A DNA stretch of 64,000 nt, from the NCBI GenBank assembly GCA_002839355.1, contig PGXW01000002.1, forward strand, positions 1 to 64,000, written 5' to 3'. The notes under the pieces are model-generated. The model was given only the letters and a program-made list of their open reading frames with translations. It was not told the DNA's origin and searched no databases. Position numbers and translations under genes: made by a program. Position 1 is the stretch's first letter; every line of letters starts with the position of its first letter. Positions 16,378-54,946 of the stretch are shown in pieces. Origin of the DNA: Spirochaetae bacterium HGW-Spirochaetae-2. GTDB lineage: Bacteria; Spirochaetota; Spirochaetia; Sphaerochaetales; Sphaerochaetaceae.

Positions 16378-18335
16378 TCATTCGCGGTTGGCGAACTCCC
16401 CGAAGTGCTCGGTGAAGACACGCACGATGTTCGGATCGAAATGTGTGCCTGCACACAGGTGCAACTCGTCGACAGCCTCCTCGATATCCATCGGTGGCTT
16501 GTACGATCGATTATCCTCGCTTGCAGGGAGATCGATTCACCCGAAATACCCCGCGGATACCCCGTTCCGTCCCACCGTTCATGATGCTCCAGAATCGCAG
16601 CGGAGATATCGATGAATTCTTGCGATGCCGCCAAAATGCGGAACCCAGTCTCCGGGTGCCGCAATATCTCCTCCCATTCCCTCTCCGAAAGTCGCCCCGG
16701 CTTGTTGAGAATACTCTCGGGAGTCCCGATTTTCCCGATATCATGCATCAGACCCGCAATGCGCATCCGCTGGATCTCCAATGTCGACATCTGCAATTTT
16801 CCCGCAATGAACTCACACAGGTCGCTCACCCGCTTGGAATGTTCCGATTCCCGGTCGCTCTTGGCAAACAGCGAATTGATCACCAGTCCGATCGTCTTGT
16901 TCTTCGCACTGGAACTTGCATAGAGCTTGTTCCGGTACATCATATCCTCAGCCAATTTGAAGATGGCGGTGAAGTCGTCCTCCATGATGATGCGGGTCTC
17001 GTATCCGAAAGACAGTGACAATTCAATGGATGCGATCTCCTCCGTCCGAGCTGTCGCTTCGATCTCCTCCAGTAGTGCTTCCGTCTCGGACCGGGAAGTA
17101 TTGGGAAGGATCACGATAAACTCGTCACCTCCGTACCGTGCAACAATATCCTCTGGCCTGCAATGGGATTGCAGCAGATCTGCCGCCTTACGCAGCACCT
17201 GGTCCCCTTCGGCATGACCAAACGAATCATTGATCAGTTTCAACCCGTTCGTATCGGCGATAATAAGCGATACCGGCAGGAAACGTGGATCATCGAGGCG
17301 CTCGAGCTCCTTTTCCAGAAAGCCCCTGTTGTACAATCCGGTGAGGAAATCGTGCGTATGTTGGTATTCAAGGCGTTCCTCGGAAACTTTGCGCTCGGTG
17401 AGGTCCTGGGCAAGGATGGCGATATCGCCTGCCATGGGGACTACCACCAACCTGAACCAAGTCGGTCTGACCATACTATCGCCCGAAAAACCCATTTCCA
17501 GGGTCTGACTTTTCCCTGATTGGGCGACCTGGTGGTATATCTGGAAGATATTGGTATCACGATGACTGGGAAACAGGTCCAACAACCGCTTGCCGACCAC
17601 CAGGTCAGGATCGGTTCCGTTCAATCGGGCAATCGCAGTATTCTCGTATACCCAGGTAAAATCAACCACGTCGCCTTGCGTATCCCATATCGGGCGCAGA
17701 ATCGTAAATCCATCGGGAGACATGTCCTGGGCAATCCGGAACCGTTCCAAGCTTTCCCGCAAGGCAATCTCGCTGAGTCTCAGCGCATCGTTCAACTCGC
17801 TCTGTTCGATCCGTTGCAAGGTCATCTCACTGATCAGCTGGGTCATATCCAACAGGAAATCCATCACCGTCCTGACTTTCTCCTGCGAGACAACCGGCAC
17901 TTCTCGCAATGCGGCGAGGTAGGCATCGGGTTCGAATCCGAAACGTGCCGCCTGTGCCTTGAAGTATTCGACGTCCGGTGTTTCGAAGAAGAATTGTCCG
18001 GAAAACAGGTTTGCGACATGGACACTTTGTATGACAATCGGTACCGCAACATCGACCAAACCATTCAAACACGTATAGAAATGGTACTTCTCCCCCTCAC
18101 TCATCTTTTGGGACAATACGGTATCGCTCTCAATACACTGTCTGTTGGTTTCGCAATTGACCCGATGGAACTTTGTACATATCCGCCGCCATCCCGACTT
18201 CGACAGGATATTCCCCTCGAGATCCAAAATGGCCGTCACGAAACCTGTCGATTGGTTGAACCCTTCGAGCAACGCATTCACCCGCTCGAAATCGAGATAC
18301 TCCAGACCGTTGTGTTTCATAGTCTCATGCCCCAC
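16378..18335 (-). pseudogene. PocR-PAS-GGDEF-HD-GYP signalling protein, frame broken in the HD-GYP domain
   Basis: Domains in order: PocR-type sensor (about residues 15-170, with Cys-rich features such as CTKFHRVNCETNRQCI and LFSGQFFFE), a PAS domain (about 205-320), a GGDEF domain with intact motif YGGDEF and RPED product-inhibition site, and an HD-GYP domain with HDIGK and EHHERWDGTGYP. After QARII the frame changes: the literal frame runs on as unrelated residues to 16227, while another frame continues YKPPMDIEEAVDELH and FDPNIVRVFTEHFG to a stop at 16378-16380. Where the family has about 14 residues (ADAYDAMTSDRP-like) only five bases, 16504-16508, remain, implying loss of about 37 bases. 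The GGDEF half could still work; the phosphodiesterase half has lost a conserved Asp/Arg segment. The shifted frame would also overlap the RIC-like gene. Either a real mutation or an assembly error. Confidence 0.8.
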
Positions 18336-52274: not shown

Positions 52275-53517
52275 TCAATAGTACCGCAGCGAGACGTATC
52301 CATACGCGAGGACCAGGGCAAGCAACGTCAAGGGAACTCCGTATGCCAGATAGCCCTTGAAGCTGAGCGGTATATTGTTCTTACGCGCAAAGCCGAACAT
52401 GATCACGTTCGCCGACGCTCCCACTAACGTACCATTGCCACCGAGACAGGATCCGAGCGCAAGGCTCCACCAGATTGGCTGGATCGCATCGACCGAAGTG
52501 GTCTCCCCGATTATCTTGACAACCGGAATGAACGTGGCGACCAGGGGAATATTGTCGAGAATCCCCGACAGGATTCCCGATCCGAATAGCAGCGCTGTGC
52601 TCGTTTTTTGGAGATCTCCCTTGGTCATATCGGTCATCAACGCAGCCAGCTTGTTGATCACCCCCGTGAATTGCAGTACCCCGACCATGATGAATAGACC
52701 GACGAAGAACAGAATCGTATCCCATTCGACCTTCTTCAAGACATCCTCAAGTTCCCGCGAGCGCGAACACACTCGGCTCGGTCTCGAGCATGCCGTTGAG
52801 CAGAAACCCGATAACCACTGCTCCGATAACAATCAGGGACTTCTTCATGAGCACAGGATTGCTGATCATCATCTTCTCATCCATAGCCATGATACGCTTC
52901 CTGTTCAGATCAGACACGACAAGCTGTTTTTTGAACAGGAGAATCAGGATACCCATCGTAATCACCGAGATAACCAGGATAGCCGGAGCCAGGTTCACTA
53001 GGAAATCCATGAAGCTCAGGCCAGCGGCCGAACCGATCATGATATTCGGCGGATCTCCGATTAGCGTCGCCGTTCCTCCGATATTCGAGGACAGGATCAC
53101 GGTGATCACAAAAGGAAGGGCTCCAACCTCCATCTGCGTGGCGAGCAGGAGGGCAATCGGCGAGATCAACAGCACCGTGGTCACGTTGTCCAACATCGCC
53201 GAAAAGAACGCCGTGATCACAAACAAGACAGCCAGAAATGCGATCGGATCGGCTTTCACCATCTTCGCGCTCTTGATCGCGATATATTCGAACACGCCGC
53301 TTTGCTCCGTGATCTTCACTATCATCATCATCCCGATCAGCAGGAAAATGACGTTCATGTCTATATGCTCGACAGCATTGTCGAATGGGATGAAATGGAA
53401 CAGCAGGTAGAGACACGCTCCCAGGACAACAGCCACGGCCTTGTTCATCCGTTCCGTGATCAATAGTGCATAGACAACTATGAACACGATTATTGAAATC
53501 ATCATGATAAGTGTCAT
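52275..53517 (-). pseudogene. SLC13/ArsB-NhaD superfamily permease, frameshifted
   Basis: Two frames together make one carrier of about 11 membrane helices. The first (53517 to 52747) runs from MTLIMMISIIVFIVVYALL through MLDNVTTVLLISPIALLLA and GGTATLIGDPPNIMIGSAAG, ending FALAGT-stop. The second frame resumes with SRELEDVLKKVEWDTILFF and GILDNIPLVATFIPVVK, GGNGTLVGASANV to a stop at 52275. The family has about ten extra hydrophobic residues between FALAG and RRELEDV; the junction at 52751-52770 contains TCGCG/CTCGCGG repeats, pointing to a deletion of roughly 30 bases between short direct repeats. The two DN motifs and the GDPPN/GASAN motifs of the ion-transporter fold are otherwise intact. 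Its ATG overlaps the stop of the EIIA-CBS gene (TAATG). Confidence 0.85.
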
Positions 53518-54381
53518 TATGGCCTCAACATCTTGTTGATGATCTCGTTGGGATTGATTACCCCGATCATCTCACCGCTCTCGTCCACCACCAGCAAGTG
53601 GCGCCGGTTGCCCTTGACCATCATGAAGAAAATCTCCGGATAGGTGATGGACTCCCGAATCACATACGGCCGATAGTCCCTGAGATAGGCACCTATCTTC
53701 AAATTGGCTTCGTTCTTCCAAAAATAGTCGACCGGTTGGAAATCCTTCAGCATCGACAGGTTGTTCAATCTGAACACATATTCGGGAAACCCTGCTTTCA
53801 GCAGATCGAGCAAGTCCAACACGCCGCAAATCTTGCCGTCTTTCGCACTGTACACCGGTAGGAAGTAGATATTGTGCCGCTTCATCTGATCCACGGCGAC
53901 CGAAAGCGTGTCCGTATCCTTTGCCCTCGGCCAGTAGCGGGCAAGATCGGCAGCTGTGAGGGGTGCTCCCATGGTGGAGCTCGAATCGCTGAGGATATCG
54001 AGCACTTCGGCGGGAGTCTGGCAGTTGTCCAGTTCTCCAGAGCGTTTGTCGATCACCTTACCTATCCCCTGCAGTATCCCGAGATACAAATCCTGGTTCG
54101 ATCCCGAAGTCAGGATAGAGAATATATAGTTGACCCGGTTGCCGTCCTCGAGCACAAGCGGAGCACCACATCTGATGAAAATCATCGAGATACCCTTTAT
54201 CTCCGGACTGTGGTTGTGGGGCAACAATGTGTTGTGGCCAATCCATGTCGAACTCAGCTGTTCCCTCTCTTCCCATCTCCTTGGAGAATTCGTCGGACAG
54301 GAATTCGTGGACCTCCCTGACGGTCTTGAAATCACGATCCAGGAAGATGCTGTCCTCCGACACGTACTTACGAAACTGCAT
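53517..54381 (-). pseudogene. PTS EIIA-like plus CBS-pair protein, frameshifted
   Basis: N-terminus in one frame from the ATG at 54381 (after GGGAGAA): MQFRKYVSEDSIFLD, TVREVHEFLSDEFSKE. Another frame continues REQLSSTWIGHNTLLPHNHS, the EIIA-2 active-site region with the phosphorylatable His position, then two CBS domains (about the last 150 residues: IYFLPVYSAKDGKICGVLDLL and HLLVVDESGEMIGVINPNEI). Between the frames (near 54262-54275) about 13-15 residues expected in the family are missing, so about 40 bases appear lost. The protein probably regulated the permease it overlaps, sensing PTS phosphorylation and adenine nucleotides (inference). Confidence 0.75.
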
Positions 54382-54589
54382 ATTGGTTCTCCCTTCCCCG
54401 TCGGGGCAGTCTTTTCAACAACCGGGTGCACGTCACCTCTTCAGCCAGATATTGGCTGCCGTCCAGACGCTGCATGATGTTCGATGGATCCTGGTGCAAG
54501 GATACAGCCGGATAGCTTTCCCCCGCAAGTATTTTCAACGGTATGGATTTCGGGGTTCTTCCCCGAGCATCTGTACCCTGTGTGTCAGA

Positions 54590-54946
54590 TCAGACGGGAG
54601 GGGCCTTGTTGAAAGGAATAGCATGTCGCAAGTATGTCGATGTACTGGGAATTTCCCGGTAATCGAATCCAAAAGCTTGTAGAAATTCGGGTGATGCCGA
54701 GACGATGGTGGCGAGAACTTCCCTTTGTCCACCACTCGTCCGTTCTTCCCGCTTCTCTTCCCGCTTCGAATTCTCCGGGATCTGCAGGTCATAGGTTCCT
54801 GCGGACGAATCATCCGAAATCGAGGAGCTGAAGCTCTTTTCACCTGCACCATCGAAATCCCACGGTGATATGCCGGATACCAACTCCAAGGGTCCTGCCA
54901 AGAGGAGCGGCAGGGAGAGTAGCAGTACCAACAGGGATTTCTTCAT
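54590..54946 (-). CDS. Hypothetical secreted protein
   Basis: 118 residues with a clear signal peptide (MKKSLLVLLLSLPLLLAGP). The mature part is Ser/Glu/Lys-rich and low in complexity (ENSKREEKREERTSGG); no family is recognised. The ribosome-binding site is weak. It stands alone between two other units. Confidence 0.5.
   Translation of the reverse strand: MKKSLLVLLLSLPLLLAGPLELVSGISPWDFDGAGEKSFSSSISDDSSAGTYDLQIPENSKREEKREERTSGGQREVLATIVSASPEFLQAFGFDYREIPSTSTYLRHAIPFNKAPPV

Follow-up and report, generated by a model that had tools for sequence, protein, structure and literature searches.

All three genes of a cassette comprising a small CBS-like gene, an EIIA-CBS gene and a CitMHS/ArsB-type permease gene are broken by short, clean losses of sequence in the 64,000-nucleotide stretch analysed here (the window), while the same cassette is whole in the sister genome G001. 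These losses are specific to the source genome, which is a draft assembly, and the interrupted cassette displays no decay. Among the causes weighed, local collapse of the scaffolded short-read assembly is the most likely, and is considered probable though well short of assured. No support emerges for a new biological process or for a new mechanism of mutation or switching.

Genomes compared

The window belongs to a 173-kb contig (C25) of a 3.6 Mb Sphaerochaetaceae draft with an estimated contamination of 3.2%. It is divided into 86 contigs and has contig-internal runs of 11 and 62 Ns, which mark it as a draft assembly with scaffold gaps. The main comparison genome, G001, is of the same genus, with the matching contig deriving from the metagenome-assembled genome HGW-Spirochaetae-4; it shares the window's genes and their order, at 92–97% identity over aligned stretches. 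Two further relatives, L014 and L015, are more distant than G001.

Repeats of two kinds were encountered in these sequences. A stretch of ∼58 bases at 308–365 of the window matches dozens of places in G001 at 82–92% identity and looks like an interspersed intergenic repeat. In both genomes, a 60-base coding tandem repeat specifying an Asp/Arg/Pro-rich tail lies at contig ends (L125, 19557–19734; L121, 1–500), where it is a likely cause of assembly breaks.

The interrupted cassette

The EIIA-CBS gene, which runs on the minus strand from 54381 to 53520, lacks exactly 32 bases at about 54270 relative to its G001 orthologue (L002), a single 298-codon frame. A preliminary description of the window had placed a loss of about 40 bases near 54262–54275; the loss is real, and the proposed size, though somewhat too large, was close. 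As that description also held, the missing bases leave the EIIA N-terminus and the active-site half in different frames. The proteins of L014 (68% amino acid identity) and L015 (61%) align without gaps over all 298 residues of the G001 protein, which identifies the window copy as derived, and the loss is specific to the source genome since G001 and both more distant relatives have full-length copies. The Pfam PTS_EIIA_2 domain, complete from profile position 2 in the relative's copy, is not found whole in any one reading frame of the window copy, where the match starts at position 46 (Table 1).

The permease gene of this coupled operon had also been described as broken, correctly: it encodes an intact, gap-free protein of 424 amino acids in G001, L014 and L015, and is split in the window. 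Its best NCBIfam matches (MamN, ArsB, DASS and NhaD) all fall below cut-off. The preliminary description missed a third lesion in the operon, a loss of ∼274 bases at 54541 that truncates the small gene preceding EIIA-CBS and takes away its start and 5′ end. L014 and L015 also have a small gene at the corresponding position, and the one in L015 is CBS-like by its similarity to G001. Relatives keep the domain content and gene order of a PTS EIIA (Pfam PTS_EIIA_2)-CBS protein and a CitMHS/ArsB-type permease, whereas the window copies are interrupted.

In three relatives, the cassette is preceded by a small ORF whose N-terminus is hydrophobic and resembles a signal peptide (54590–54946, minus strand; L014, 5296–5791; L015, 4141–4540). 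Its sequence has diverged, and a short C-terminal motif is kept (FNKAPP or LLRAPP).

Table 1. Features of the interrupted genes in the window.
Feature	Positions	Strand	Remarks
GGDEF/HD-GYP gene junction, 37 bases absent at 16508	16507..16509	-	Comparison with G001
CitMHS/ArsB-type permease, split over two frames	52278..53517	-	Each half matches Pfam CitMHS (profile 1-230 and 234-336)
Permease junction, 32 bases absent at 52754	52752..52757	-	2-base microhomology
EIIA active-site half and two CBS domains, post-lesion frame	53520..54269	-	Pfam PTS_EIIA_2 from profile position 46, CBS; 98% identical to intact G001 protein; dN/dS 0.05
EIIA junction, 32 bases absent vs G001	54270..54273	-	3-base microhomology
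EIIA N-terminus, pre-lesion frame	54274..54381	-	36 codons; differs from G001 at one residue
3′ remnant of small gene preceding EIIA-CBS	54368..54541	-	Intact 141 aa in G001
Junction, ~274 bases absent at 54541	54541..54546	.	6-base microhomology

Gene-breaking losses elsewhere in the genome

Approximately 370 kb of the source genome was aligned to G001 for a count of lesions. A loss was taken as clean when its flanks were at least 93% identical and was counted when it broke the reading frame, leaving out larger differences in low-identity intergenic stretches. Eight such losses of 14–274 bases occur in the source genome and none in G001, an equally distant sister (sign test, p = 0.004). They affect the permease (32 bases), EIIA (32), the small CBS-like gene (274), the HD-GYP gene (37), hisG (23), hisF (34), a NusG_II-like gene (14) and the start of a glycosidase gene (37), the NusG_II-like and glycosidase names coming from reading of the translated frames without a family search. 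The HD-GYP lesion is the one noted previously at 36 kb from the cassette, and the others bear out the suggestion that lesions of one kind, tens of bases long, recur. The hisG and hisF genes (L162, positions 8566 and 14221; G000:C6) are the sole copies in the genome, and both are truncated or split by frameshift.

Five of the eight losses measure 32–37 bases. The sister genome has losses in this size range too, at intergenic or in-frame positions, and its own clean losses, of 11 and 34 bases, are both intergenic. A sharp 32–37 mode seen for both genomes in a first histogram softened with better gap handling and more sequence. A reference-free scan for frame switches by codon usage was abandoned, as it returned about 200 candidates and was too noisy at 49% G+C. 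Two insert-like intergenic differences, of 154 and 104 bases, separate positions 121231 and 133399 of G000:C25 from C140 of G001; at the counterpart of the first, G001 carries a GC-rich palindromic sequence, and both are probably mobile intergenic repeats rather than lesions.

The gene-breaking rate is about one site per 46 kb aligned, which, extrapolated from the ∼370 kb, would give some 80 sites in the whole genome. Three of the eight fall inside a 1.8-kb part of one operon, for which random placement gives p of about 0.004. As far as is known, every broken gene is dispensable; no indispensable gene is among them in a small sample, 80 kb selected for tRNA-synthetase and gyrA-type genes.

At the junctions, microhomology amounts to 0, 0, 0, 0, 1, 2 and 3 bases in seven events and to 6 bases for the 274-base loss; the losses do not lie at short repeats, where the preliminary description had proposed looking for them. 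No motif common to the eight lost segments and no direct or inverted repeats at their ends were found.

Assembly error or recent deletion

Selection strongly constrains the split EIIA and permease genes to either side of their lesions, with dN/dS of 0.05 for the main EIIA piece, 0.01–0.05 for the permease and 0.11 for the 36-codon N-terminal piece. Ordinary decay brings nonsense changes and one-base frameshifts first. Mid-gene nonsense changes are few in number and no more frequent than in the sister genome, most of the listed stops lying close to the 5′ end, a region with an uncertain start codon; one-base frameshifts likewise show no excess over the sister. The lesions are scattered in genes still under selection, as expected of local assembly error.

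Local assembly errors yielding wrong protein-coding genes have been documented in metagenome assemblies (PMC7111523). The present case resembles these in that wrong local sequence breaks genes at scattered sites of a draft with scaffold gaps, and differs in that the sites carry no Ns; the comparison here is made from assembled sequence alone. Assembly error is favored because eight losses face none in the sister, constraint is strong, nonsense changes are not in excess and the sole hisF and hisG are broken, as well as because the junctions share no motif, microhomology is 0–3 bases in seven of eight events and the scaffolded draft contains N runs. Of the three causes put forward in the preliminary description, systematic assembly collapse fits best. 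Under such a scenario, a scaffolded short-read draft would have been wrongly joined at local gaps, dropping short stretches with no Ns to mark the loss, and the same joining fault would recur at the rate given above. The three-gene cassette would then probably be intact in the living organism, and reads would be expected not to support the junctions.

Several observations stand against assembly error. Three lesions in 1.8 kb of one operon are rare for random errors, a clustering in keeping with the genuine and recent loss of a coupled function, or else with a stretch where the assembly is locally poor. No indispensable gene is broken in the small sample. The junctions are clean and without Ns, whereas Ns or repeats usually mark the place of an assembly gap. 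The 274-base loss has a 6-base microhomology of the sort that real deletions often show.

These same features favor the main alternative, namely that the losses are real and very recent short deletions in the strain or population, the cassette and other dispensable genes (the histidine pathway, HD-GYP) having been lost independently through ordinary slippage or end joining. Because of the operon clustering, the restriction to dispensable genes and the lack of Ns at the junctions, this explanation retains considerable weight, while falling short of an even chance. Like recent deletion pseudogenes, the broken genes are otherwise conserved, have small losses that shift the frame, in some cases within a single operon, and have intact orthologues in relatives. 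However, the cassette differs from such pseudogenes in having no nonsense changes, one-base frameshifts or relaxed dN/dS: neither relaxed selection nor further inactivating changes were found (dN/dS 0.01–0.11), although further deletions do occur in neighboring genes of the EIIA operon. The strong one-sided excess over the sister, which does not extend to nonsense changes or one-base frameshifts, and the mostly minimal microhomology also speak against real deletion.

Mutational and switching mechanisms

A deletion-biased mutational process peculiar to the lineage, for instance a repair defect removing about 30–40 bases, would accommodate both the predominance of 32–37-base losses and their one-sided excess, but is improbable. 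The sister's own losses of that size indicate that such sizes are not confined to this lineage, the events have no sequence feature in common, and a general process predicts that clean losses of such size should be common between genes as well. It is equally hard to credit that a real process removes ∼32–37-base pieces without repeats and repeatedly inactivates genes, several of them in one operon. The shared, sequence-specific process suggested earlier fares no better, given the lack of a motif, the scant microhomology and the absence of hairpin enrichment: the lost regions are predicted to be no more strongly structured than random ones, and hairpin-driven loss was rejected accordingly.

Phase variation or site-specific excision toggling the genes off and on, also raised in the preliminary description, is less credible still: the similar sizes in several genes (32, 32, 34, 37 and 37) are accompanied by losses of 14, 23 and 274 bases, and no flanking repeats, invertible segment or stored second copy were found. 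Even when up to three mismatches are allowed, the 32-base EIIA and permease segments have no other occurrence in the genome, and so were neither moved nor stored. Since there is no motif, little microhomology and no second copy of the two tested segments, phase variation, recoding and sequence-specific excision are all unsupported. A CRISPR link, considered for losses of spacer size, was rejected; the only regular arrays in the examined sequence are the coding 60-base tandem repeats, and neither the EIIA nor the permease segment has a second site in the genome.

Implications

Taken at face value, the draft describes a spirochaete without histidine synthesis and without the EIIA-CBS/permease transporter system. 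An annotation of histidine auxotrophy from this draft is unsafe because the sole hisG and hisF are both frameshifted. Should the losses be assembly faults, some 80 genes of this reference genome would be mistaken for broken ones; should they be real, the cassette would constitute a clean case of recent multi-hit operon loss.
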